DNA from: a virus
IMG/VR virus record: IMGVR_UViG_3300003324_001329
Coordinates: 36,788-97,738 of that record
Direction: 5' to 3' (one strand)
Length of the DNA stretch: 60,951 nucleotides
Numbering within the stretch: position 1 is the first letter of the stretch; the number at the start of each line of letters is the position of its first letter. Below the pieces are notes generated by a model. That model was not told where the DNA came from and searched no databases. It saw nothing but the letters and a program-made list of their open reading frames with translations. Shown in pieces: positions 2,902-37,243 of this stretch. The translations under genes and the position numbers were made by a program.

Positions 2902-5265
2902 ATGGTATTGCCGATCATCACCGGCTCGCCGGGCGTGTATGTGCGGGAAGAAGATATCTCGCAGCAGGATATTCCTTTCACCACTTCCATCGGCTGCCTG
3001 GCGTTTGCCTCGAAAAAGGGCACGCTGGATGCCAAACTGGTGACATCGGCCACCGGATTTAATAAGGAATATGGTCCGTCGGATATTTCCTGGGGCTACG
3101 GGCACATTTCCGCCAATGCGTTTTTCTCCACGCAGAATAACAACAATACCTCGCCGCCGGCGTTGTGGTGCAAGCGGGTGGTTAATACCGACGCGCGCCA
3201 CGCTGGGGCTACCGTGCTGAACGTCGGCTCCGGCGCGGTGGGCGATACCGCCAATGAAATACTGAGTTTTATTAATCCGTTCCCGGTCGGCACCTTGAAT
3301 GGTTATGCCGGCGGCGGACGGCAGATTTTTATTATTCAATTCAGTCAAGCCTTATCCGGCAGCGACAGCATTTCCGGTTCTGTCACCCCAAGCGGTGATG
3401 ATCCGGTGGCGTTTGGTCCGATAGCTTATGCCACGTCGCACGCCGCCACCATGGCGGCTATCGTGGCGGCAATTAATACCGCATTGGACGATGTGCCGCC
3501 GGCCACCAACGCAGCGGGTGGATTTGCCGAAATTCTACTCGGTGATCCGACGCGCAATATGATTATTGTTTATGGGCCGGAAGGCACCACGATTGAATTT
3601 GCCGCCGATTTAACCGGCGGTGGCGGTGGCTCGCGTTTGGTTCTCGGTGCCGGTGGGCCGTCATTGTCCGTCACTACCGCCGAAGCCTCGACATTATTTG
3701 AGGTGTACGCGGAAAATCCCGGCAGTTGGGCCAACGATCTCGGTATTTCCATCACCGATATCGATAATGGCGTCAAGCAACGGGTGCAATTAACTTTTTC
3801 CGACGCCTTGGTCGCTTCCAACATCGTGCATCTGGCGTTATTGGTCAACAGCGATATTATCAATGTCGCCAATACCACTTATGCCACATCCAACGATGCC
3901 ACCTTAACCGCGCTGGCTACGGCGATTGAAACCGCCATTCCCAATTCCACCGCTACGGTGGTTATTCCGGCCGGTTCCGGTGGGTCTAGTGCGCGGCAGA
4001 TAAATATTATTGCCCCAACAGCCGGGGTTGGCGTGCTGGGATTATACGCCGCTTCGGTGACAGCAGGGACTTCGCAGGCTAGCATCAGTTTCCGCGAAAC
4101 CTACGCCGGCAGCGCCTCGGCTGGCACGTTTACCCTCAACGTGTGGAAGCGGGGCAATATTAAAACCCCGGCGGAGTCATTTATCTGCTCCTTGGGTGAG
4201 CAACTGGACGGGCTGGGCCGGCAATTATTTGCCGAGCAAAAAATCAATCTGGCCGCCGGCAAGTCGCAGAATATTCGCGTCTCGGTGAATACCGCCGCGA
4301 TTGCCACTGGCTCGGGTTTGGACAGCGCCTACGCCAGTTATTATAATACGATTACCTGGCTGGATGGTGGCGATGATGGCAGCCTGCCGTCCAATTCACA
4401 ACTGGTGGTGGGTTGGGATACTTTTTCGGACGCCGAGACCTACCGGGTGAATTTATTAATCAACGCCGGGCAAACCGAACTGGTGGTGCAGCAAAAAATT
4501 GCGCAAGTGGCGGAAAATCGCGGCGATTGCTTTGCCATCCTGGATATGCCTTCCGATGCCCAGGAGGTTAATGCCGCTTTATCCTATCGCACCACCGAGA
4601 TGAATATCGACAGTTCGTACGCGGCCGTTTATTCGCCGGATTTGCAGGTGGTTGATCTGACCAGCGATAAAAAGATTTACGTCCCACCGTCGGGCTATGT
4701 GGCTTCGCGCTACGTCTACACCGATAATAACTTTGCGACGTTCTGGGCGCCGGCCGGGCATGATCGCGGTCGCTTGCCGGGGGTAATCGGCCTGCGCGAG
4801 ATTTATAAAAAGCCGGATCGCGACGTGCTGGACCCGGTGCAGATCAATTGCATCCGCCTTGCCTTGGATGGTTCGGGATATTTAATCTGGGGCGATAATA
4901 CCTTGCAGGTGACAAAATCGCTGCGCTCGGCAATTAATGTCCGGCGGTTGATGCTGTACATCGAGACCACTATTGCCGCCTCGCTGGAAAGGAACGTGTT
5001 CGATAATAATTCGGCGCAGTTGGCGTTTTTAATCCAGCAACGGATCAAGAAATTCCTTGACGTGGTGCAGGCCAACGGCGGCATCAAGCGGTATTTGGTG
5101 GTGTGCAATTCGTCGAATAATCCGGCGTATTTTGCCGATGCCGGGCAGCTTAACGTCTCGGTCTACATCGTGCCGATCCGCGCCGCCAAGACCATCCTGT
5201 TGGATGCGGTAATTACCCCGTCCGATATCAACTTCAACGAAATCGTCATCAACGGGCAGGTGTAA
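2902..5265 (+). CDS. Tail sheath protein
   Basis: 787 residues behind AGGAG. The N-terminus 'GSPGVYVREEDIS' is the usual opening of contractile-tail sheath proteins. The C-terminal ~280 residues carry the conserved sheath domain: 'YVPPSGYVASRY', 'WAPAGHDRGRLPGV', 'LDPVQINCIR', 'NVRRLMLYIETTI', and a closing strand-rich part where the sheath handshake strands lie. The middle (~residues 100-400) is Gly/Thr/Ala-rich and likely holds surface-exposed inserted domains, which explains the length (T4 gp18 is 659 residues). The protein surrounds the tube and contracts to drive it through the envelope. Confidence 0.93.
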   Translation: MVLPIITGSPGVYVREEDISQQDIPFTTSIGCLAFASKKGTLDAKLVTSATGFNKEYGPSDISWGYGHISANAFFSTQNNNNTSPPALWCKRVVNTDARHAGATVLNVGSGAVGDTANEILSFINPFPVGTLNGYAGGGRQIFIIQFSQALSGSDSISGSVTPSGDDPVAFGPIAYATSHAATMAAIVAAINTALDDVPPATNAAGGFAEILLGDPTRNMIIVYGPEGTTIEFAADLTGGGGGSRLVLGAGGPSLSVTTAEASTLFEVYAENPGSWANDLGISITDIDNGVKQRVQLTFSDALVASNIVHLALLVNSDIINVANTTYATSNDATLTALATAIETAIPNSTATVVIPAGSGGSSARQINIIAPTAGVGVLGLYAASVTAGTSQASISFRETYAGSASAGTFTLNVWKRGNIKTPAESFICSLGEQLDGLGRQLFAEQKINLAAGKSQNIRVSVNTAAIATGSGLDSAYASYYNTITWLDGGDDGSLPSNSQLVVGWDTFSDAETYRVNLLINAGQTELVVQQKIAQVAENRGDCFAILDMPSDAQEVNAALSYRTTEMNIDSSYAAVYSPDLQVVDLTSDKKIYVPPSGYVASRYVYTDNNFATFWAPAGHDRGRLPGVIGLREIYKKPDRDVLDPVQINCIRLALDGSGYLIWGDNTLQVTKSLRSAINVRRLMLYIETTIAASLERNVFDNNSAQLAFLIQQRIKKFLDVVQANGGIKRYLVVCNSSNNPAYFADAGQLNVSVYIVPIRAAKTILLDAVITPSDINFNEIVINGQV

Positions 5266-5311: not shown

Positions 5312-5836
5312 ATGCCGCGCATTACCCTGAGCGAAGTGCAATCGCTGCCGGATATTCTTTCCACCGAACACTACGTATTTAACCTCGGGGATATTCCCGG
5401 TGTCGGTGACAGTTATCCATTGGCGATTAAATGCGTCGATGCCAACATTCCCGGATTTTCCACCGAGAGTTACGAGGTACCGTTGCATGGGACGGTGCGC
5501 CGGTTCCGCGGCCGCAAAATGTATCCGCGCAGTCTGGCGGTGACGTTCATCGAGGACTCCACGCTGCATACTTTATTAACCCTGCGGCAATGGATGGAAC
5601 AAATCGTCGGCAGCGAAAGCCAGACTTCGATTGGCGGGGTGGCAGATTATTCCACCCTGGCTACCCTGACCTTGTTCGATCAGGCCGGCAACGAGGTAAA
5701 TTCGCTGGAATTTATTAATTGTTTCGTCCAAGACGTGCCGGATACGCAAGTCACCGGAGAAAGTTCCACCGCAATGCGCATCACCGCGACTTTTTCCTAC
5801 GATTACGTGCGGTTCTCCGGCACTGATATGCGATAA
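5312..5836 (+). CDS. Tail tube protein (gp19-like)
   Basis: 174 residues directly after the sheath, as in T4 gp18-gp19. Start ATG 5312 behind AAGGA. Typical tube layout: N-terminal strand set, central helix 'LHTLLTLRQWMEQIV' and C-terminal strands 'ITATFSYDYVRF'. It forms the rigid inner tube through which DNA passes. Shares layout and short motifs with the next gene. Confidence 0.8.
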   Translation: MPRITLSEVQSLPDILSTEHYVFNLGDIPGVGDSYPLAIKCVDANIPGFSTESYEVPLHGTVRRFRGRKMYPRSLAVTFIEDSTLHTLLTLRQWMEQIVGSESQTSIGGVADYSTLATLTLFDQAGNEVNSLEFINCFVQDVPDTQVTGESSTAMRITATFSYDYVRFSGTDMR

Positions 5837-5886: not shown

Positions 5887-6468
5887 ATGCCGACACCACG
5901 GCTGAGTGCCGTTCAGGGAATGCCCGATCCAGCGCCAAGTTGGATGTGGACGATGGATATCCTGATGCACGGCACCAACATTATTCAGGATTTGTACGTA
6001 TTGGAGGTGAATTTTCCCTTCGCCTACCTGGAATCTGCGGCACGATATCGGGCCGGGACGTTTTTATATTTTCCCGGCCACAGCAACATTGACAGCCCCG
6101 CCGTGACTTTCTACGAGACCGAGAGTTTTCAACTGTTACAGGCATTCAAATCCTGGCAGGATAAAATCCGCGACAACGACGGCAATTACGGAATGCCGGT
6201 GGATTATCTCGGCACCGTGGTTTTGCATCTGCACGATACCCGTGGGCAGGAACGGGCGCGCTGTTATTTGTACGGCTGCTGGCCGTCGCGCTTGGCCGAT
6301 TGGGCGATGAATTATCAAAATAGCACGCATTTGCAGGTGCAAGTGACGTTCGCCTGCAATGACAGTGAATTTATTTTCAACGACGCCACAGCGGCCGGCG
6401 TCAATCAGGCGTTGGCGCAATTGCAGCCGGAAATTAACCGCTTGGCCGAGGGCAACTTTACGTTCTAA
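5887..6468 (+). CDS. Second tail-tube-like protein (tube paralogue or tube initiator)
   Basis: 193 residues. Shares with its neighbour the opening '(L)SxVQxxPDxxxS', a 'PxVTFxExxSFQLLQAFKSW' helix and a final strand ending in sensitivity to F/Y ('QVTFACNDSEF'). This is the gp19/gp48-54 type arrangement. It may form the tube-baseplate junction, a minor tube ring, or a second tube protein; sequence alone does not decide. Confidence 0.7.
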   Translation: MPTPRLSAVQGMPDPAPSWMWTMDILMHGTNIIQDLYVLEVNFPFAYLESAARYRAGTFLYFPGHSNIDSPAVTFYETESFQLLQAFKSWQDKIRDNDGNYGMPVDYLGTVVLHLHDTRGQERARCYLYGCWPSRLADWAMNYQNSTHLQVQVTFACNDSEFIFNDATAAGVNQALAQLQPEINRLAEGNFTF

Positions 6469-6577: not shown

Positions 6578-7825
6578 ATGGCAACCCCACCCAATCCCGA
6601 ACGTCGCCGCATCCGCGTGCAACACTCCGGCGTGATTAATCCCGCCGAATTGGCGCAAGTGCGCCAGGATCACGCCGCCTCGCTGAATAATCCTCCGCGA
6701 GAAAATCCCAACCAAGCCCCGGTGGATAATCCACCCGAGCCACGCGCGCTGGATATCAGCGAATTGCAGGCCGCTTTTGCCAAGGCCGGACAGGCGGCGC
6801 CGAAATTTAATCGCCCGACGGCACCAGAAACCGCACGGGAAAAGCTGCCGACGGCGCGGGAGGAATTATTATCCTCCACAGCGGAAACTCCGGTCAGTGA
6901 ATTGCCATCAAGCGGTAACTCGCTGCAAACCGCCACCGAATTGCATCAGCATCGGGTCAACGGCAATATTGCACCCGGCCGCTTCACGGTACGGGAAATT
7001 CTCCCCTCTAACGGGGTATTTTATAATTATCCGGAATTGGCTATCCGGCCGTTATCAGTGCCGGATTACGCCAAACTGTACCGGGCACGCGCGGAAACCG
7101 ACGAAACTTTATTCATCGACACCATCGCCGGCTGTGTTTCCGGGGTGGATGTGCGCGATCTCAGCCTGAAAGATTTCCGCTACTTATTGTACAAAATCCG
7201 GCTGATTTCCACCCTGAAATCGCCGTACCAATTATCCTATACCTCGATGTACGGCAACCGCTGCACCTACACCGTCACTTCCACCAGCCTGGACGTGAAA
7301 ATCCTCGCTGCTACCGCGGAAGAATATCAGGCGTGGCAGCAGCGGGGATTTAATATCCCCACCTTGCGCGACTACGAAGAATATAATTCGATGGCGGTGA
7401 AATTGTCGCAGGAGGATGATTGGCTGTGGTCGCGGGCCAAATATATCCAGGGGTCATCGGTGGAGGATAAAATCCGCCGCTTGAAGCAGGAATTTGATCC
7501 GGATATTTTATTCACCGATCTGGAAGAATTTGTCCGCAAATTCGAGGAATACGGCGTCACCGAAAGCGTCGAGTTGGCGGATAATAAATTCAATGCGCAG
7601 GAGGCGTTGAAAAAACTGCGGGAGGATTTACGTCGCATAGATTTGGTGCTGGAAGCGCCAACCCTGCCGCCGGCCACCGCCGATGGATTATTGACCCGAC
7701 GCAGCGATGTAGCAGAAGAAATTCGCCGGCTGGAAACTGAACTTGCCAACACGGGGGAGGCGACGCCGAAGCGTGAAACCATCACATTCAGCTTGGAGAT
7801 AGCTGATTTCTTTCCCGTCTTATAG
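6578..7825 (+). CDS. Tail-assembly chaperone, upstream frame (T4 gp26-like)
   Basis: 415 residues behind AGGAG. After a disordered ~125-residue Pro/Ala/Asn-rich head comes 'FTVREILPSNGVFYNYPELA', 'IRPLSVPDYAKLYRARAETD' and 'DLSLKDFRYLLYKIRLIS'. That is the pattern I know for T4 gp26-type baseplate/tail chaperones of large phages. The C-terminal third is charged and helical (coiled-coil-like, ~residues 300-400). It lies between tube and tape-measure genes, the canonical place of frameshifted tail chaperones (lambda G/GT). The frame stops at 7825 inside an apparently conserved region that continues in another frame. Confidence 0.7.
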   Translation: MATPPNPERRRIRVQHSGVINPAELAQVRQDHAASLNNPPRENPNQAPVDNPPEPRALDISELQAAFAKAGQAAPKFNRPTAPETAREKLPTAREELLSSTAETPVSELPSSGNSLQTATELHQHRVNGNIAPGRFTVREILPSNGVFYNYPELAIRPLSVPDYAKLYRARAETDETLFIDTIAGCVSGVDVRDLSLKDFRYLLYKIRLISTLKSPYQLSYTSMYGNRCTYTVTSTSLDVKILAATAEEYQAWQQRGFNIPTLRDYEEYNSMAVKLSQEDDWLWSRAKYIQGSSVEDKIRRLKQEFDPDILFTDLEEFVRKFEEYGVTESVELADNKFNAQEALKKLREDLRRIDLVLEAPTLPPATADGLLTRRSDVAEEIRRLETELANTGEATPKRETITFSLEIADFFPVL

Positions 7826-8048
7826 TCTACGGGATTTGCTGCACCGGATTTATAATCTCTCCACACACTTGCCCAACTTACCGGATTTTATCTACGAAAA
7901 TGCCGCCTGGTTTTTCTACATTTCCAATGAGTTGGAAATGGACCGGATCAAGGCGGAAACAGCAGCACGCGCCGCGATAACCGCACGGGCCAACGCCGCC
8001 AACGATAGCGCACGTAATTCCATGCGCCGGCGCATGACGTTGGGTTGA
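7803..8048 (+). CDS. Tail-assembly chaperone, downstream frame (probable frameshift extension)
   Basis: This frame is open from 7803 (after TAG at 7800) to 8048. It encodes 'SYSLRDLLHRIYNLSTHLP', then 'FIYENAAWFFYISNELEMD' and an Ala/Arg-rich helical end. It has no good start codon or ribosome site near its 5' end: only TTG 7836 or a late ATG 7939 that would drop the conserved part. The overlap with the upstream ORF is 23 bases and contains TTT-CCC-G in the upstream frame. A +1 (or -2) shift there gives a ~489-residue fusion. Read as the extension of the gene before it. Confidence 0.65.
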   Translation: MISFPSYSLRDLLHRIYNLSTHLPNLPDFIYENAAWFFYISNELEMDRIKAETAARAAITARANAANDSARNSMRRRMTLG

Positions 8049-8069: not shown

Positions 8070-10571
8070 ATGTCCGACACCACGGCTGATTTTGCCTCGC
8101 CATTCCCGCCGGCGCGGGATGAATTGATGCGGATGCTGAAACGCAGCAACGAACGGGCGGATAATTCCGCCCGTTTGTGGCAACAGCAAGCCCGCACCAT
8201 GGGGCGATTAACTACCGTGGTAGAAAATCTGGCGCGCAGTCACGCCACCCCACCCCGGCGCAGCGGGCGCGGCAATCCGGATCAGCCACGCGATCCGGCC
8301 ACTGGCCGATTTATTCGCGCCAGCGCGGCGCCGGATCGCTTGGCCAGCAATTATCTCAGCGAAATTTCCCGCGACAGCAAGCGGCAAGTTTCCACCCTGA
8401 ATGGAATTTCCCGCTTATTATCTTCCGCCGAAGCGGATCGGAAAACCAATACGCTGCAACAGGGCGTGATGTTCAGCCACATGCAGCAAACCATGCGCGA
8501 GATATTAAAAACCTTGCGCAATATGCACGGCGGCTTGGGTGGTGGCGGTGGATTATTCGACGGCCTGGGGGATTTATTTGGCGGTGGTGGCGGTCGTGGT
8601 CGCGCCGCACGGGCACCCCGCAGCGGGCCGGGATTTTTCGGCCGGATGCGCGGCCGGGCGGGAAGATTATTTGGCGGCCTCGGGCGGGGAATTGGCCGCG
8701 GTGGCAGTTTATTAGGCCGTGGCGTAGGCGCGATTGGTCGCGGCATTGGCGCCATCGGCAGCGGGGCTGGAAGATTATTAAGCGGCGTGGGTCGGGTTGG
8801 CGGTTTGGCGATGCGCGGCCTGGGTTCGGTGGCTGGACCCTTAGCCGCCGTGGGATTAATGGATGATTTATCCACTTTGGCCACGCCGGAATCCCGTAAT
8901 ACACCATTTATGGGCGATGAAAGCACCGGCGGAATATTAGGCTCACGATTTTCCCGCTACGCCACTTCGGCTTTATCTGGCGCCACTTTAGGCGGCGTGG
9001 CCGGTTCGGCTTTTGCTGGCGTCGGCGCTATTCCCGGCGCAGCCGCCGGCGCGGCAGCAGGATTGGCGGCAGCGATTTATGCCGATCTGGCGCCGCAAAT
9101 AAACACCATGGTTGGCAGTTTAACCAAAAAAGCCACCGGCATGGTCACAGATTCGGTCAGTTGGATTGCTGATAAACTGCCGTCGTGGAATGATATTGTC
9201 ACCGGCTCGACTAATATTGCTTCGGCTATTGCCGAGGGCACCAAATCTCTCGCTACTGCGGTTGCCAACAAGGTATCAGATATCAGCAGCAAAGCTGCCG
9301 AAGCAGTTAAATCTGGCGTGGTGGCAGCAGGAAATTTAGCCGAGCGGGCTGGCAGTACGATCGCTTCCGGCGCCCGCACGGTGGGCAGTGCTGCGATTTC
9401 TGGCGTGCAAGCCGCTGGCAGCGCAATTAGTTCCGGGGCACAAGCGGTTGGCAGTGCGGTTAGTTCCGGCGCCCAGGCAGCAGGAAGTTTAATCAGTCGG
9501 GGTTATAATGCCATTACCGGTGGTGGCAGTGATGCGGGCACCGATAAATATACCCCAGCCGGCACACCTATCAGCGGCAAGAATTTCCAGGAAAAATCGC
9601 CGAAGATTATGGCGAATTTAATGAAAGATTTCGGCCTAACCAAAGAGCAAGCCGCCGGCATTGTCGGTAATCTCGGCCACGAGTCCGGTGGATTTAATCA
9701 AATGCAGGAGATTAATCCCCTTGGCGGCGGGCAAGGCGGCTACGGTTGGGCGCAATGGACCGGACCACGACGACGGCAATTTTTCGATTGGGCCAAGGCA
9801 AATAATCTTGATCCCAATTCCGACGAAGCCAATTATGGCTTCCTCAAGCACGAATTATCCACCACGGAAAAAGGCGCGATTACCGCGGTCAAGAAAACCA
9901 GTACCGCTGACGATGCGATGCGTGCCTTTGAGGGAGGATTTGAGCGCGCCGGGGTTAAACATTATGGCAGCCGTGGCAAATATACCAACACGGCGCTCAG
10001 TGAATTTGATAAATCCCAGCAAGCGCAAGCTACGCAGCAGGCACAAGCTACCCCTGCCGCTTCGGCCACCAATCCACCGGCACCAGTTAATCGCAATCAG
10101 GAATTAACTGATTACACTGATTTCTCCACCACGTATCAAGGCGATCCACGCAAAATGCAGGAAGCCTGGAAGGCACATCAGGCACAATTGCAGCAAACCC
10201 GTGGCGATATTGCCGCGAAAAAAGCCGCCGGCACCTTGCCGCAATTAAGCGCGCAAGATAAAGCCCAGGCAGTGCTGCAAAATCCAGCATTATATAGTGC
10301 CGCTGATGTAGCGCAAGCCAAAGCCACATTAAATCAAGGCGGGACGGAAACCGCGCGCGATACTGCGGTAACTCCGGATAGATATATGCCGCCCAGCCCG
10401 CAAGGCGATTTTGGCGGACAAGCCAGCGCCGCGCCGCCGCCAGTGACTACGGAAACTGCCAGCCCACGCCGACAACAAATGGCCGGTGGCGGTTTACCAT
10501 CTCTGGATGAAATACCCATGTCGATCAGCGATAACGGAATTATTCTCGTCAATGCCGGGCATCTGGCGTAG
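8070..10571 (+). CDS. Tape-measure protein with tail-lysozyme domain
   Basis: 833 residues. Residues ~1-140 are helical and Arg-rich; ~150-250 are Gly/Arg-rich; ~245-345 contain hydrophobic Gly/Ala segments able to insert into membrane; ~400-490 carry degenerate 'AGSAISSGAQAVGSA' repeats typical of tape measures. Residues ~505-650 form a phage tail lysozyme domain (Phage_lysozyme2 type), with 'GIVGNLGHESGGFNQ' (Glu538 as likely catalytic acid) and 'GGYGWAQWTGPRR'. The protein should set tail length and cut peptidoglycan on entry. The C-terminus is low-complexity Ala/Gln/Pro. Confidence 0.88.
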   Translation: MSDTTADFASPFPPARDELMRMLKRSNERADNSARLWQQQARTMGRLTTVVENLARSHATPPRRSGRGNPDQPRDPATGRFIRASAAPDRLASNYLSEISRDSKRQVSTLNGISRLLSSAEADRKTNTLQQGVMFSHMQQTMREILKTLRNMHGGLGGGGGLFDGLGDLFGGGGGRGRAARAPRSGPGFFGRMRGRAGRLFGGLGRGIGRGGSLLGRGVGAIGRGIGAIGSGAGRLLSGVGRVGGLAMRGLGSVAGPLAAVGLMDDLSTLATPESRNTPFMGDESTGGILGSRFSRYATSALSGATLGGVAGSAFAGVGAIPGAAAGAAAGLAAAIYADLAPQINTMVGSLTKKATGMVTDSVSWIADKLPSWNDIVTGSTNIASAIAEGTKSLATAVANKVSDISSKAAEAVKSGVVAAGNLAERAGSTIASGARTVGSAAISGVQAAGSAISSGAQAVGSAVSSGAQAAGSLISRGYNAITGGGSDAGTDKYTPAGTPISGKNFQEKSPKIMANLMKDFGLTKEQAAGIVGNLGHESGGFNQMQEINPLGGGQGGYGWAQWTGPRRRQFFDWAKANNLDPNSDEANYGFLKHELSTTEKGAITAVKKTSTADDAMRAFEGGFERAGVKHYGSRGKYTNTALSEFDKSQQAQATQQAQATPAASATNPPAPVNRNQELTDYTDFSTTYQGDPRKMQEAWKAHQAQLQQTRGDIAAKKAAGTLPQLSAQDKAQAVLQNPALYSAADVAQAKATLNQGGTETARDTAVTPDRYMPPSPQGDFGGQASAAPPPVTTETASPRRQQMAGGGLPSLDEIPMSISDNGIILVNAGHLA

Positions 10572-10582
10572 GAGATTAAATC

Positions 10583-11362
10583 ATGTCAGGCACCAGCACG
10601 GTACCCGCCTCACTAGCCAATCTAAATAGAAACTACCTGATTAGAATTTGGGGCCAGGATGAAAATAAAACCCCGGTGGATATCATTGCCGCCGCGCCGG
10701 AGGAATTTTCTCTCGATGTATCCTCGGATTGGCAGCCATTATTAAGCGGCATGGGCGATCAAATGCTGGAACGCCTGGGTAAAACCGGCGCTGCCGCACG
10801 GGCCACCGAACGGGTGGCAAATATGACCGGCTACACCTTTCAGAATACTTTTATGACCCAACAGGTGTGGAACTCAACCTCACCGATTGAATTGCGTATT
10901 CCGATTAAATTCAACGCGGTATATAATGCCCGGAGTGAAGTCACCACGCCGATTTTACGCCTATTAAGTCTGTGTCTGCCGTCGGAAATATTCGACACTT
11001 CCGGTAGCACCATTGGCGATTATATCGAACAATTTTTACCCTTGCACGCGCCAGGGCCGACCATCGCCGGCGAGGGCAAGGGTGGCAGCACGTATAATAT
11101 CAGTGTCTCGGTTGGCCGGGTGTTGACATTTACCAATGTGATTATCACCAACGTCTCGGCGGTATTCCATACCCTGCCCAGCCGGGAGGGAGATTTTATT
11201 GCCGCCGACGTGGACGTGTCGCTGCGCACCAGCCGGATTTTAACCAAACGCAATCTGGCCAACATCTTCAAGAATATTCAATTGAGCGATGGACAAATTC
11301 CCACCGCAACACAAGTGCCAACGTCGATAGGTGGCCTCCTGGGTCTAGGAAGGGGGAATTAA
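10583..11362 (+). CDS. Baseplate/tail-tube adaptor candidate
   Basis: 259 residues, ATG behind AGGAG. Contains 'LNRNYLIRIWGQDENKTPVD', a Met/Leu-rich helix, and a strand-rich second half ('VGRVLTFTNVIITNVSAVFH'). It sits between tape measure and hub, where Mu has gp43 (N) and T4-like phages have tube-initiation proteins. Its N-terminus resembles that of the next ORF ('NLNxNYL'). No domain is recognised with certainty. Confidence 0.55.
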   Translation: MSGTSTVPASLANLNRNYLIRIWGQDENKTPVDIIAAAPEEFSLDVSSDWQPLLSGMGDQMLERLGKTGAAARATERVANMTGYTFQNTFMTQQVWNSTSPIELRIPIKFNAVYNARSEVTTPILRLLSLCLPSEIFDTSGSTIGDYIEQFLPLHAPGPTIAGEGKGGSTYNISVSVGRVLTFTNVIITNVSAVFHTLPSREGDFIAADVDVSLRTSRILTKRNLANIFKNIQLSDGQIPTATQVPTSIGGLLGLGRGN

Positions 11363-21904: not shown

Positions 21905-22513
21905 TTATTTTTTATCTTCCGACCGGATAATTCCGAAATTCTGCACTTTGGCGATGTGCAAACTAATAACCTGCACCCGCTGCAACACTGACCGATCCAG
22001 CATGGTATGGACTTCGTTCCACAGCCGGTGTTTGGTGAGAAAACCACGCAAGATTAAATCCTGCGTCTCACGAAAAGTGTTTTGCACCACCCGAAAGCCA
22101 TCCGCCGGCGAGGTCGGCCAAGGGTACAACGGGAAATAATATAATAAACTGTACTGACTGAGATTTTTTAATACCTCCCATTCCATCGCCGCACCCACTT
22201 CATCCGAAATCACCGGGGCGCAATATAGCAGGCAATAACAATAATGATCGAGCAAGGTGCGCTCGTAAATGCCGGGAAGGTTGGCCGCATCCTGGATGAT
22301 TTTTTCCTGAAAACAGGCATTCTGGATTAACCACTGTTGCTCGACTGGTGACGAGGCCAGACTCATTTGCGTCTGGTTAAATTTTGCGAAAGTGCCGCGC
22401 ACCACTGAGGGATGCAGTGGTAAATCCTTGGCACGGGATAATTCCTGCGCCACGCTGGTTTTGCCAGTGCCACTGGCACCAATAAACCCTACCCGGATTG
22501 ATCCTTCAACCAT
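21905..22513 (-). CDS. P-loop kinase/ATPase (nucleoside kinase-like)
   Basis: 202 residues from ATG 22513, which overlaps the stop of the Rad50-like gene (ATGGTTGA), suggesting translational coupling. N-terminus 'IRVGFIGASGTGKTSVAQEL' holds a Walker A motif (GASGTGKT). Later 'GIYERTLLDHYCYCLL' resembles the D/ER...D region of deoxynucleoside or NadR-type kinases (AAA_28 group). It may phosphorylate a nucleoside or nicotinamide riboside; the substrate cannot be told. Confidence 0.65.
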   Translation of the reverse strand: MVEGSIRVGFIGASGTGKTSVAQELSRAKDLPLHPSVVRGTFAKFNQTQMSLASSPVEQQWLIQNACFQEKIIQDAANLPGIYERTLLDHYCYCLLYCAPVISDEVGAAMEWEVLKNLSQYSLLYYFPLYPWPTSPADGFRVVQNTFRETQDLILRGFLTKHRLWNEVHTMLDRSVLQRVQVISLHIAKVQNFGIIRSEDKK

Positions 22514-24809
22514 ATTGCTGCTCCTGTGTATTGGCGTGGCCCCAGGTGGTGACGCCATTTTTCCGCACCAAAAGTAATTCAGCGGCGTTGGGGATAGGCA
22601 TTTCCTCCTGACTGCGCGGGGTGATTAATACCAGATTGGGGATCACGGCGGTTAATGCTGGAATAAACTCATGGGTGAACAAGGTTAAATCTTTCTGGTC
22701 AATTCCCGCTTCCAGTTCATCGAGTACGAGATGCGAACAGCGCAGACTGTCCGGCATCAAGGAAATCAACGCCAACGCCGATACCGCGAGGAATTGCCGC
22801 GACTCCGAGCCGGATAATGAGCGCACATCGCCGATTTTGCCGTGCCGCTCGGCGACGATGGAAAATAAATTCGGTGCCACTTCGGCGTGGAATTTGATCG
22901 GCTCCGGGTACAGGCTGGGGGCCAGATTATTCAGTGCCGTGGTGTAGGCATTGGCCAGGGAATTAATCTGCATCACCCGAATGCCCTTGGCCGAGTAGGC
23001 TTCTGCTAAGGCTTGCAGAATATCTTTATTCTCCACCACTTTGTCGATTTCACTCAATTCCGCCTCGATTTCCTGCAACTGGCGGCGGGCTGCATTATAT
23101 TCCGATTGCTGCACGGAAAATCGATGTAGTTTATCCGACACCTTGTTCAGCGCCGGGGAAATCTCGCCAATGGCGGCCAGGATACCGCGATGCGCCCGCC
23201 GCGCTGCGGTGATATTTTCGTACGGTTGCTGCATCTCGGCCAGTTTTTGCAGCAAGCGAATATCGTGGTTGACCCGGTTGCGGGCTTCCTCGGTTTTATT
23301 TAATTCCCGCTCGACAGCGCGCAATTGCGTGCGATCCACCGTGGCGTATTCGGTGATGCTCGGCAGCCGGCGCAATTGCCGGCGCAACTCTTGCCGCCGC
23401 TGGGCGATATTTAATTCTTTGGCGATGCGCCGGGCTTTTTGCCGCTGCTGATCCAAGCGTTGCTGCACATCGCCAATATCGCAGGTTAATATTTCCTGCG
23501 GCAATTTCTCCTGCAATTTACGCACGAAAGCGGCGCTCTCGGCGGTGAACAGGCGATTTTTATCCTCGGCAACGATCTGCCGCAGCCGGGCAATTTCCTC
23601 GGCGTGCTGTTGGCGTTGCACCACTTGCCCGCACAACGGACAGGGTTGGCCGACTTGCACCTTGCGCCGCTGTTTCAGGTGGAATTTATGTTCCGCCAAT
23701 TGCTGCTGCAATTTATCCAATTTGCGCTCGCTGGGCGAGGGGATATTCTGCACGCTGGCAGCAATGGCATGGTAGCGCAGGATGAACCGCTCGAATTTGT
23801 AATACCGCTCGACGATAGTTTCCAATTTGTCGATCCAGCCGTTCAGCGCGTTTTGCAACCGCTGTAATTCCTCCACCCCACGGCTGGCTGGCAGAGCCGA
23901 TAAGCGGCGGATAATTCGCTTGCGCGCTTTGTAGATTTTCTTCTGCGTGCGTGCCGCTCCCAGCCGGCGCTGCAATTTGCGCAAGCGGTGATCGAGGCGG
24001 GTTAATTCGCCATCATATTGCCGGCGCTGGCGTTGCAATTCCACCAGACTGGCTTCGGAGGATAATTGCTCGGCTAAGGTGATGTAGCCGTTGAGATCGG
24101 CGTGCTGTTGATTTAATTCCTCCAATTGCCGGCGCAATTTATCCCGCCGCTGACGGGCTTTGGCGATGCGCGGCGCTAAATCTTTTTGCCCCGCCTCGGC
24201 CAATTGCGCCTTTTGCTTGTGCAGAATTTGCTGTTGCGCCGCCTTGGCATTAACCTCCTGCAATTCCCGCAGCAAGGCCCGACGCATCGCGTCATAAATG
24301 CGCAATTCAAACACCGACTCAAAATAATCCATGCGCCGGGCCGCCGAGCCGACCGCCAGCACCGAAGGGCGGTAGCTGGAAATATAAAACTGCGAATAGA
24401 TGTGATCGTCGGAAAATGGGATGGCTTGCTGGATGAATTTACGTGCGGTGTCGATTGCCTTTACATCGAGGGGTTTATTATCCCGGCTGATGCTGTAATT
24501 GACCGATTTGTTGCGGGCGAATTGGACAATATCCCAGCGGGTGTCGCCGTTGGTTAATTGCAATTCAATCCGGGCCTTGTCGAACACCAAATCCCGCGCC
24601 GCGCGTTTTTTCACCGCCAATGGTGGGGCTTCGGTGATAAGATTGCTGATGCTGGCGGCCAATAATGATTTGCCTACCCCGTTGGCCGAGTGTGAACGCC
24701 GATCCAGATTTAATCCCCGCACTACTTGGAGAGGGTACTTATCCATTTTCCAAATAAGGTCGCGGAAAACTATATGGTTTTGCAGCCGGAGTTGATGCAG
24801 CGTAATCAT
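22506..24809 (-). CDS. Rad50/SbcC/gp46-type recombination ATPase
   Basis: 767 residues. Walker A 'SANGVGKS' (residues 41-48), long heptad-type coiled coils (~180-370 and ~400-590) either side of a zinc hook CPLC (Cys390, Cys393), then signature 'LSGSESRQFLAVSALALISL' and Walker B 'HLVLDELEAGID' near the C-terminus. This is the complete SMC-like layout of T4 gp46. The nuclease partner (gp47/SbcD) is not in the window. Acts in end processing, recombination and recombination-driven replication. Confidence 0.92.
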   Translation of the reverse strand: MITLHQLRLQNHIVFRDLIWKMDKYPLQVVRGLNLDRRSHSANGVGKSLLAASISNLITEAPPLAVKKRAARDLVFDKARIELQLTNGDTRWDIVQFARNKSVNYSISRDNKPLDVKAIDTARKFIQQAIPFSDDHIYSQFYISSYRPSVLAVGSAARRMDYFESVFELRIYDAMRRALLRELQEVNAKAAQQQILHKQKAQLAEAGQKDLAPRIAKARQRRDKLRRQLEELNQQHADLNGYITLAEQLSSEASLVELQRQRRQYDGELTRLDHRLRKLQRRLGAARTQKKIYKARKRIIRRLSALPASRGVEELQRLQNALNGWIDKLETIVERYYKFERFILRYHAIAASVQNIPSPSERKLDKLQQQLAEHKFHLKQRRKVQVGQPCPLCGQVVQRQQHAEEIARLRQIVAEDKNRLFTAESAAFVRKLQEKLPQEILTCDIGDVQQRLDQQRQKARRIAKELNIAQRRQELRRQLRRLPSITEYATVDRTQLRAVERELNKTEEARNRVNHDIRLLQKLAEMQQPYENITAARRAHRGILAAIGEISPALNKVSDKLHRFSVQQSEYNAARRQLQEIEAELSEIDKVVENKDILQALAEAYSAKGIRVMQINSLANAYTTALNNLAPSLYPEPIKFHAEVAPNLFSIVAERHGKIGDVRSLSGSESRQFLAVSALALISLMPDSLRCSHLVLDELEAGIDQKDLTLFTHEFIPALTAVIPNLVLITPRSQEEMPIPNAAELLLVRKNGVTTWGHANTQEQQYG

Positions 24810-24821
24810 GCGGGAGCCTTT

Positions 24822-25631
24822 TTATTGTTCGCTGGCAAATTCTTCCTCAACATCCATTTCCTCGCTGCGGCGTGGACTGTAGCGTTGCTGGATGGCGCCA
24901 CAATAATCGAGTAATTCGAACATATCGATCACATGGGCAAACTGCGAGAGAAAATAATTGCTCATATTGCGGTTGGGCGCAATGGCAATGGTGGTGGCAA
25001 TATCCAGGCTGGCAAGATGCTGCACCGCTGGTAGGATTTGCACATCCTGGGAGAAAATCAACGCATGGTTCATTTCCGGCAGATCGGCGTTCCAGGCCAA
25101 CTCCATCATGCGGACAATAATCTCCGGGGCGAGGGAATTTTGCGCCATGCGGTTTTCCGCTTGCCGCAGCAATTGATCTAAGGATAATCCCTCGGTGCCG
25201 CGCGGATCAACCCGCAAGCCGCGTTGCTTCGTCACCAGATGGAATTTTTCCTGCTGCAACAGGCCGAACAGACGGAAAATCTTTTCGTTGTTGGCCAGAT
25301 AACCGGAAAAATAATTGATCGGCGGCTGGATGTGCTTGTGGTCGCGGAATTTGGTGAAATCGACGTAGAATTTATTATCCAGCAGCGAATAATAAAAATA
25401 ATCCGCATCAATGAACCAAGTCGCCGGCTCGGTTTGTTCCAGCCATTGTGTTATCGGCAACGCCTTGATAATCCGCCGCCCGGTGTTGTAGCCGCTGGCG
25501 CTGAGAATGGCGCGGTAACGCGATCCCCAGGTTTGCCGGTTGATGCGCGCCGAAGTATCGCTGGTATCCGGGGAATTTAGATTAATCGCTTGGCGCTGAT
25601 GGCGAATCCGTGGCGAAAAATTAGACGACAT
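24822..25631 (-). CDS. NYN/PIN-like domain protein
   Basis: 269 residues from ATG 25631, which overlaps the stop of the clamp-loader gene. 'TWFIDADYFYYSLLDNKFYV' followed by 'VDFTKFRD', then 'MNHALIFSQDVQILPAVQHL' and 'IATTIAIAPNRNMSNYFLSQ' give the NYN (LabA/DUF88-like) pattern: a first acidic 'D-x-D', a second 'S-x-D-x-x-x-x-P', and a strand then helix. NYN proteins are metal-dependent RNases of the PIN fold. The C-terminus is acidic. Role in phage RNA processing is inferred. Confidence 0.6.
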   Translation of the reverse strand: MSSNFSPRIRHQRQAINLNSPDTSDTSARINRQTWGSRYRAILSASGYNTGRRIIKALPITQWLEQTEPATWFIDADYFYYSLLDNKFYVDFTKFRDHKHIQPPINYFSGYLANNEKIFRLFGLLQQEKFHLVTKQRGLRVDPRGTEGLSLDQLLRQAENRMAQNSLAPEIIVRMMELAWNADLPEMNHALIFSQDVQILPAVQHLASLDIATTIAIAPNRNMSNYFLSQFAHVIDMFELLDYCGAIQQRYSPRRSEEMDVEEEFASEQ

Positions 25632-26661
25632 TAGCGGTTTTTCCTCTATTTTGGGCAATGTAGGCCAAACGCGCCGGCAACAAATGCTGTTCCGGCAGGA
25701 TAAATCGCTGGACTTCGGCCCGTACATCCAGCAGGGAATTTTGCACCCGCAGCACCCGAGCCAGCGAGATTTGTTCGGTGTGCTGCGCCAGTTTATCCGT
25801 CAACGGCGAGCGCCACGGGGCGCGGTCGATTTTATTTTGCAGCAACCAGCCGTTCATGGTCAGCAGGGCATTTAACAACGGAATGGCCGCCGGGGTTGGG
25901 GTTAGATTAGCCAGCACCAGTTGCGGCCGCCGGCGATAGATAAACACCAGAATTTTTATCGCCAGATTGCTCGGGGCTAAATCCGGCACCGCGGCAAAAG
26001 CCCCGGCCAACATGGCGGCATAATCCGCTCCACCACTATCAGCCGCCCCTTGCAGCAATTGCAACGCCAAGGCCGGCTGGCCGTTGGCGGCAGTGGCAAT
26101 ATCGCGCAATAGTTTATTTTTCCGTGGCAGTTGCAGTCTTTCCCGTCCGGCTACCCGGCGCAACAGTGGCAGAATATCCGCCGGTTGCGGCTGCACTAAG
26201 GGCAATAAATAACAGCGCCGCACAATTGCCGGCAATAAGGCTTGTGGCTCGCTGGTGACAAGCAACCAAATGGTGCGTTCCGGCGCATCCTCGATGGGTT
26301 TTAATAACGCCGAGGCAGCGGCGCCGGTGGCTTGGTGAATTTCATCCAGCAGCATGATGCGATATTTGCGCCGGGGCGCGTAATTGGCCGCCGCGATGAT
26401 TTCGCGGATACGGTCGATACCGCGATCCGTGCCGATATTAAATTCCTGCAAATCCGCCAACGGCCGACCGTATTTAACCCCGTTGAACAAATACGCCAGA
26501 ATATAACCGAGACTGGTTTTACCCACTCCGGACGGGCCGCTGATTAAAATCTGCCGCGGGATGCGCTGATTATTAATCATTCCCTGCACGCGCGAGACCG
26601 CCGCCGGCTGGCCGAGCAAATCTTTAAGGCGGCGGGGGCGGTATTTATCAACGAACTCCAT
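25621..26661 (-). CDS. Clamp-loader ATPase (gp44/RFC-type)
   Basis: 346 residues. 'FVDKYRPRRLKDLLGQ' is the RFC-box opening; Walker A 'GPSGVGKTS' (42-50), Walker B 'IMLLDEIHQATG', sensor-1 'WLLVTSEP' and 'AIVRRCYLLPL' (SRC-like arginine finger) follow, then a C-terminal helical collar. It loads the sliding clamp for the phage polymerase. Neither clamp nor polymerase is in this window. Downstream genes on this strand overlap or follow closely. Confidence 0.9.
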   Translation of the reverse strand: MEFVDKYRPRRLKDLLGQPAAVSRVQGMINNQRIPRQILISGPSGVGKTSLGYILAYLFNGVKYGRPLADLQEFNIGTDRGIDRIREIIAAANYAPRRKYRIMLLDEIHQATGAAASALLKPIEDAPERTIWLLVTSEPQALLPAIVRRCYLLPLVQPQPADILPLLRRVAGRERLQLPRKNKLLRDIATAANGQPALALQLLQGAADSGGADYAAMLAGAFAAVPDLAPSNLAIKILVFIYRRRPQLVLANLTPTPAAIPLLNALLTMNGWLLQNKIDRAPWRSPLTDKLAQHTEQISLARVLRVQNSLLDVRAEVQRFILPEQHLLPARLAYIAQNRGKTANVV

Positions 26662-36577: not shown

Positions 36578-37243
36578 ATGTCGCAACGCTTTCAGTTGCC
36601 GCTGCGCCGCAGCATGGACCCGCCGCTGGCCGGGGCGGGGGTATTATCCGACGCCGAATTGTTGAAGCTGTATTATCAAAACAACGGCGAGCCGCTGTTT
36701 CCGTTTTTTGTCAACCAACGCAGCGAGCGCGGTCTGCCCTCGTACGGCTTGGGGCCTTGCACCTACGATATTCGCCTGGATTATAAATTCCGCGCCTTCA
36801 TTGATTTTTCCACCACCCAGGAACAAGGCCAGGATTTCCACCACACCATCGATATCATGGACAAGGACAGTTTATTCACCGACGAATTTACCGTCCCCTA
36901 TAACGGCTATTTCGATCTGGCCCCTGGCGGATTTATTCTCGCCAAAGCCATGGAGTGTTTTCGCCTGCCGCGCGATGTGATGGGCCACGTCAGTGATAAA
37001 TCCACCTACGCCCGCTGCGGGTTGGCGTTGCAGAATACCATTATTGATCCCGGCTTCGAAGGAGATTTAACCTTGGAAATCTCCAACCACAACTTCCGCC
37101 CGATTCGGATTTATCCTGGCGCCGGTATCGCCCAGGTCAGTTTTCATCGGGTACTCGGCCACGTCAATCGTTCCTACGCCGACCGCTTCAACGGCAAAGG
37201 GGGAAAATACCACCGCCAGATCGGAGTCGTTCCGCCTAGATAA
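36578..37243 (+). CDS. dCTP deaminase (Dcd-like)
   Basis: 221 residues. 'CTYDIRLDYKFRAF' (N-terminal strand), 'VMGHVSDKSTYARCGLALQN' (substrate-binding S-x-x-x-R segment) and 'DPGFEGDLTLEISNH' (catalytic Glu region) are the Dcd/dUTPase-fold hallmarks; ends with 'GIAQVSFHR'. Converts dCTP to dUTP. With the uracil-DNA glycosylase (42931) and ribonucleotide reductase (39606), it implies phage control of dTTP supply. Confidence 0.88.
   Translation: MSQRFQLPLRRSMDPPLAGAGVLSDAELLKLYYQNNGEPLFPFFVNQRSERGLPSYGLGPCTYDIRLDYKFRAFIDFSTTQEQGQDFHHTIDIMDKDSLFTDEFTVPYNGYFDLAPGGFILAKAMECFRLPRDVMGHVSDKSTYARCGLALQNTIIDPGFEGDLTLEISNHNFRPIRIYPGAGIAQVSFHRVLGHVNRSYADRFNGKGGKYHRQIGVVPPR

Follow-up and report, generated by a model that had tools for sequence, protein, structure and literature searches.

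The tail-assembly chaperone gene of a viral record (IMG/VR IMGVR_UViG_3300003324_001329) probably gives rise to a short and a long chaperone by programmed +1 frameshifting, a reading to which we assign a probability of roughly 0.8 from sequence comparison and in which the tRNA-Phe would move from UUU to UUC near the end of the gene. The whole stretch of DNA analyzed, hereafter the window, comprises 60,951 nucleotides and covers positions 36788–97738 of the 97,738-base record. Across relatives, the split between the reading frames, the slip word and the extension as a protein sequence are conserved. We infer the slip itself, its efficiency, the identity of the slipping tRNA and the role in assembly. 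Most ribosomes would terminate at 7825 and release a 415-residue short form, and a fraction would slip +1 at 7811–7814, with the P-site tRNA-Phe exchanging the wobble codon UUU for the Watson–Crick codon UUC, and read on to 8048 to yield a 489-residue form with an additional C-terminal domain. If the pair works as gpG/gpGT does in lambda, the portion common to both forms would bind the tape-measure protein, and recruitment of tube subunits would fall to the additional domain.

The gene lies in a tail module in which a tail sheath gene (2902–5265) comes first in gene order, followed by two tail-tube-like genes on the + strand (5312–5836 and 5887–6468; PHROG_45 tail tube, E = 4.4e-23 and 4.6e-17). 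Profile matches place the chaperone open reading frame (ORF) between these and a tape-measure-like ORF directly downstream (8070–10571, + strand; PHROG_9570 tail length tape measure, E = 2.3e-13). The 0-frame ORF, the presumed short form (TAC-N), occupies 6578–7825 (+ strand, 415 residues, stop TAG at 7823–7825) and its 3' end reads ATA GCT GAT TTC TTT CCC GTC TTA TAG. The +1 frame is open from 7803 to 8048 (81 codons) and overlaps the 0 frame by 23 bases (7803–7825, + strand). Within this overlap lie the candidate slip word TTT-C (7811–7814, + strand), which is the only in-frame TTTC of the ORF, and an alternative, CCC-G (7814–7817, + strand), also found in a relative, L002. The predicted extension (TAC-C domain) runs on the + strand from CCG at 7815 to the stop TGA at 8046–8048 (7815–8048) and would bring the fusion to 489 residues. 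A sequence-only reading of this DNA had already noted the stop at 7825, the second frame open from 7803 to 8048, the 23-base overlap and the lack of a usable start in the second frame, and all of this was confirmed: from 36 bases before to 45 bases after the stop, the sole start candidate is TTG at 7836, which has no Shine–Dalgarno-like 4-mer. No tRNA genes were found within the window. An open +1 frame of 40–110 codons past the stop also occurs in 46 of 439 other long ORFs from the same loci; the feature rises above chance because 52 of the 76 de-duplicated loci have it at the equivalent position and because the extension is under selection at the protein level.

The ORF described earlier as T4 gp26-like codes for a protein that its profile matches relate to T4 gp26/gp51 only distantly. 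It matches PHROG_13792 (E = 1.5e-14), PHROG_150 (baseplate hub, E = 7.1e-6) and PF12322 (E = 1.4e-4), the last at 22.1 bits, which is under the gathering score of 24.5; gene B of PaBG clears that score with 26.0 bits. A structure model of the window ORF has a mean pLDDT of 74 and is good from about residue 140. At E values of 0.001 or lower its fold matches 13 predicted viral proteins, of which three carry the name baseplate or baseplate hub protein and the others are unnamed or uncharacterised; the SP-15 baseplate hub subunit is matched at E = 9.5e-7, and the match to the baseplate hub subunit of the T4-like phage phiP4-3 reaches just E = 0.042. Searches of the PDB gave nothing significant, by fold with the window model (best E = 0.35) or by sequence (best E = 0.86), and a scan of NCBIfam gave no useful match. 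A CxxC pair precedes the Phe-Phe motif in Motura, BcepSauron and T4 gp26 and is missing in the window and L002; at the corresponding place (window 7583–7768, approximately residues 336–397) the model has two long inserted helices.

Distant relatives were collected from phage records and viral contigs. Of the 104 loci taken in, four (L047, L090, L101 and L102) ran off ends, leaving 100 readable; removal of loci more than 90% identical at the junction reduced these to 66, and 10 added phage records brought the set to 76 (L106, which is the L002 contig again, was left out of the analysis). A split was called where a frame stayed open for 35–110 codons beyond the stop, with +1 preferred if both frames were open, and this rule was combined with hand-listed identifiers for the -1 and two-gene loci. 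The 76 de-duplicated relatives thus comprise 52 loci with a +1 split, seven with a -1 split, 15 two-gene loci and two that were set aside. The -1 class fell from eight rows to seven when L062 was set aside for an apparent upstream frame error, and visual inspection confirmed L116 as -1; the 16 rows classed as "other" are the 15 two-gene loci and L055, which was set aside as its extension runs off the locus. Among the two-gene loci, L044 is cut off with gene B outside the sequence, and in L010, where gene B gave the match, gene A was read manually. In L062, which stays outside the counts, the chaperone ORF apparently changes frame upstream of its C-terminus (about 3501–4210), perhaps through a sequencing indel.

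The +1 split is found in named isolate records (RHph_I42, PhiXhv-16, phiXF1, QdP_Psa3, immuto, Mel-JY01, LIS04, GXN1 and SP-15), and the 52 loci fall into 16 groups at an identity of 40% and into 39 at 60%, so that, being related to each other, they are not independent trials in any of the counts over loci given here. The closest relative of the window, L002, is 44–45% identical in alignments and shares both the arrangement and the string GAT TTC TTT CCC G; eight of the last 10 codons that encode the same residue in the two genes are identical, compared with 41% of 172 over the gene. The clade to which the window belongs has few members, L002 being the one close relative from the viral-contig search. 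In that search the subgroup alignment A6 recovered the L002 contig alone and the extension alone found no relative, and the Motura-type alignment A5, used against genome contigs, found none either. A nine-protein alignment held no stretch conserved enough to serve as a query, and it was the subgroup alignments that gave relatives.

At the split, an in-frame TTT followed by C or T is present in all 52 of the +1 loci, within a conserved Phe-Phe, Phe-Leu or similar motif ahead of the stop. Retention of split frames together with a slip site in relatives had been set beforehand as a test of the frameshift, and these 52 loci retain both. TTT-C alone is found in 27, TTT-T alone in 12 and both in 13; the TTT nearest the stop lies 1–10 codons from it and is followed by CTT (18 loci), CGN (11), TGG (10), CCC (9) or other codons (4). 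Elsewhere in the same ORFs TTT-C/T occurs at 87 of 15,920 codons, which would predict 3.7 of 52 loci. Codon usage is a fairer control, since the Phe residues are themselves conserved, and it leads to the same picture: where TTT is the minority Phe codon the slip word is nevertheless present in 23 of 23 loci against 3.5 predicted. The simplest model for all 52 sites, read from their sequences, would have the P-site tRNA-Phe move from UUU to UUC or UUU.

The sequence-only reading had placed the slip one codon further on, as a +1 shift of CCC to CCG within TTT-CCC-G. Shifts of this type are described for the Listeria phages PSA, A118 and A500, which according to the available text of PMC5009743 have +1 sites at CCC, and the window's TTT CCC G, retained in L002, also holds a CCC. 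The Listeria sites, as described there, lie in capsid and tail shaft genes, and at the split of the present family CCC is found in just 21 of 52 +1 loci (21 or 22, depending on the search span), leaving 31 without it, whereas TTT-C/T is found in every one. UUU to UUC is for this reason the better candidate, and we regard a slip on the proline codon as unlikely. What survives of the earlier proposal is the region of the site and the fused sequence IADFFPSYS, which translation of either slip produces, so that within the window the sequence is equally compatible with both codons; the overlap with CCC-G, predicted to be kept in relatives, is kept in L002, but the element conserved across the family is TTT-C/T. 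CTT-C/T occurs at 19 of 52 splits, and in some phages tRNA-Pro (CCC) or tRNA-Leu (CUU) may be the one that slips.

The same frame would be reached by a -2 frameshift, the type known from phage Mu, and 24 of the 52 +1 loci have a T tract that would permit it; a re-pairing site for it is nevertheless absent from the window overlap and from 14 other +1 loci, which makes it very unlikely. Of the programmed +1/-2 shift first suggested for this family, the +1 alternative is thus borne out by the split in 52 of 76 loci, and the -2 alternative is not, there being no re-pairing site in the window.

The bacterial prfB gene shifts +1 at CUU-UGA with a Shine–Dalgarno sequence upstream. There, as proposed here, the P-site tRNA slips one base forward, but the window overlap contains no in-frame CUU, and none followed by C or T, a Shine–Dalgarno-like element is not general in the family, and the distance from UUU to the stop varies between 1 and 10 codons. 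Shine–Dalgarno-like 4-mers precede the slip word in 14 of 52 +1 loci, compared with 100 of 1040 other positions, and downstream RNA folding has a median z of -0.84 over 51 loci, with +1.54 (no structure) in the window; across the +1 loci, neither upstream Shine–Dalgarno elements nor downstream structure emerged as a general stimulator. The words GGGG or GGAG stand directly ahead of TTT TTT C in L017, L020, L025 and other AT-rich +1 loci and are possibly a lineage-specific stimulator. In the available text of the PRFect paper (PMC10885494), CCC and UUU are given as the next most slippery codons at a prfB-type site.

The earlier impression that the second frame continues in a conserved-looking way is supported by a median dN/dS of 0.13 for the extension, with all values below 0.5, over 27 pairs with usable dS, although these pairs include near-duplicate loci and are not independent; dS was saturated in 56 further pairs. 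This selection on the protein, and the recurrence of the split at one position in 52 de-duplicated loci, complete genomes of cultured phages among them, already refute gene decay or an error in sequencing or assembly as an explanation for the family, despite the short homopolymers that adjoin the site and a relative, L062, that resembles a frame error further upstream; its probability is negligible. A profile of the frameshift extension, searched against 584 ORFs of the two-gene loci, matches the C-terminus of gene B, the long paralogue encoded in a single frame, in 14 of 15, and no other ORF was matched at E < 0.01. The product that the +1 loci would make by fusion is therefore encoded by one continuous gene in other lineages.

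In many records the extension is either missed or listed as a separate hypothetical gene, among them RHph_I42, Motura, PhiXhv-16, RHEph12, BcepSauron and SP-15, where it is annotated as its own CDS; a fusion would correct these annotations. That it is in truth a small gene with its own start is quite improbable. A start codon with a Shine–Dalgarno-like 4-mer does lie near the split in 12 of 52 +1 loci, but 19 have no ATG there and six have no ATG, GTG or TTG; the window offers only the TTG at 7836, without a Shine–Dalgarno sequence. Moreover, the same domain is joined in frame to the chaperone domain in those 14 two-gene loci, and a separate gene would leave the TTT-C/T in all 52 loci unexplained.

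Compared directly, the C-terminus of T4 gp51 and the extension give no significant match (HMM E value 3.6; P of 0.019 in hhalign). An indirect link is suggested by the sequence of cyanophage S-SM1, in which the CDS annotated as gp51 (3073–3255 of its locus, L131) falls inside the -1 extension of gp26. Cyanophage gp51 is reported to be about 20% of the length of other gp51 proteins and similar to their C-terminal region (Sullivan et al., 2010, PMC3037559, in the portion of that paper available). For S-SM1, at any rate, this unusually short "gp51" would be the gp26 extension in the -1 frame.

The seven -1 loci all carry NNT TTT TTC at the place occupied by TTT-C/T in the +1 loci. Seven further records were fetched after this pattern had been noted: six are -1 loci and carry the word in every case (CBB, RaK2, slurp01, S-SM1, PA5oct and XbC2, with PA5oct a near relative of MIJ3 from the earlier set, and XbC2 of CBB), and the seventh, Dickeya JA29, is a two-gene locus. 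In the short genes of two-gene loci, TTT-C/T was found in one of 16 examined, T4 gp26 among them, the exception being L031. In AT-rich two-gene loci the codon is TTC in 10 of 11, even though TTT makes up 70–91% of their Phe codons; L031 again is the exception (TTT T). The words at this place are TTC TTC in Lu11, PaBG and HRDY3, TTC TTT A in NCTB and TTC TTT G in T4 gp26. In both +1 and -1 loci the way in which the T run is phased against the reading frame agrees with the direction of the shift, an agreement that also bears on transcriptional slippage on the T tract, since a polymerase is blind to frame. Some relatives have six to eight consecutive T here, which would suit such slippage, but the window has just TTT CCC, and the 18 loci with TTT CTT likewise have no long run at the site, so that we consider transcriptional slippage highly improbable in comparison with a ribosomal shift.

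Chaperones of the lambda gpG/gpGT type are produced by a programmed frameshift, mostly -1. As the available part of PMC5009743 describes them, they likewise comprise a short and a long product from overlapping frames between the tube and tape-measure genes. The likeness is one of gene arrangement: the window shift would be +1 rather than -1, and its protein is gp26/gp51-like. Closer in family are the chaperones (TACs) of T4-like phages, for which the portions of two reports accessible to us describe separate short and long genes in some phages (PMC10885494, citing Vladimirov et al., 2022) and polyT -1 signals in TAC-N genes (PMC12846349, citing Vladimirov, Gautam and Davidson, 2022). The remark in the sequence-only reading that T4-like phages are not known for such shifts is accordingly out of date. 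Our two-gene and -1 loci are in line with those reports, as far as their available text goes, and the window and 51 other loci differ from the systems reported there in using a +1 site, TTT-C/T. The Adele paper (PMC12846349) describes, in its available part, a conserved -1 shift at GTTTTT in the TAC genes of Vandenendeviridae and Andersonviridae, which resemble the window in that TAC-N ends with a conserved T-rich slippery site and a C-terminal frame had been missed but, compared by description, shift in the opposite direction. The chaperone of the haloarchaeal myovirus HSTV-2 is very likely made by a +1 shift (PMC5009743, available text) and is thus another +1 case in a myovirus tail chaperone, likened here by description. 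Short and long chaperone pairs, and the -1 and two-gene versions in T4-like phages, are already in print in the parts of these papers available to us; in the literature searched, which covered few subscription journals, we did not see the UUU-C/U +1 version described for the gp26/gp51-like family.

It seems reasonably likely that the same principle extends to one large contractile-tail chaperone superfamily of jumbo, marine and T4-like phages. The long form would then arise as tRNA-Phe moves from one Phe codon to the other, UUU or UUC, with the direction set by the register of the short U tract at the conserved Phe-Phe (UUU-C/U for +1, U-UUU-UUC for -1); lineages would have exchanged +1, -1 and gene duplication for one another and kept the same two proteins, with the slip word mostly absent beside the duplicate. 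If this is true, the family holds a +1 slip motif that is conserved widely and is of a type not found in the literature searched; for forward shifts, the available text of the PRFect paper (PMC10885494) states that no general motif has been identified so far. The 52 de-duplicated loci with a common forward-slip motif form a natural test set for +1 slippage, and the three genetic solutions for the same protein pair (+1, -1 and two genes) are open to side-by-side comparison.

Several other genes of the window drew attention. The SbcC-like ORF at 22506–24809 (- strand) was matched by its profile from position 295 onward only, and the ORF at 24822–25727 (- strand), without a PHROG match, overlaps that at 25621–26661; the N-terminus of the SbcC-like ORF has possibly been split or replaced in this region (22506–26661, - strand). 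In the tail module, positions 10583–11362 match PHROG_1114, "PmgG-like head morphogenesis" (E = 5e-34), despite their location, and the tape-measure-like ORF at 8070–10571 contains a phage tail lysozyme domain (PF18013, residues 512–645, E = 5.2e-29).
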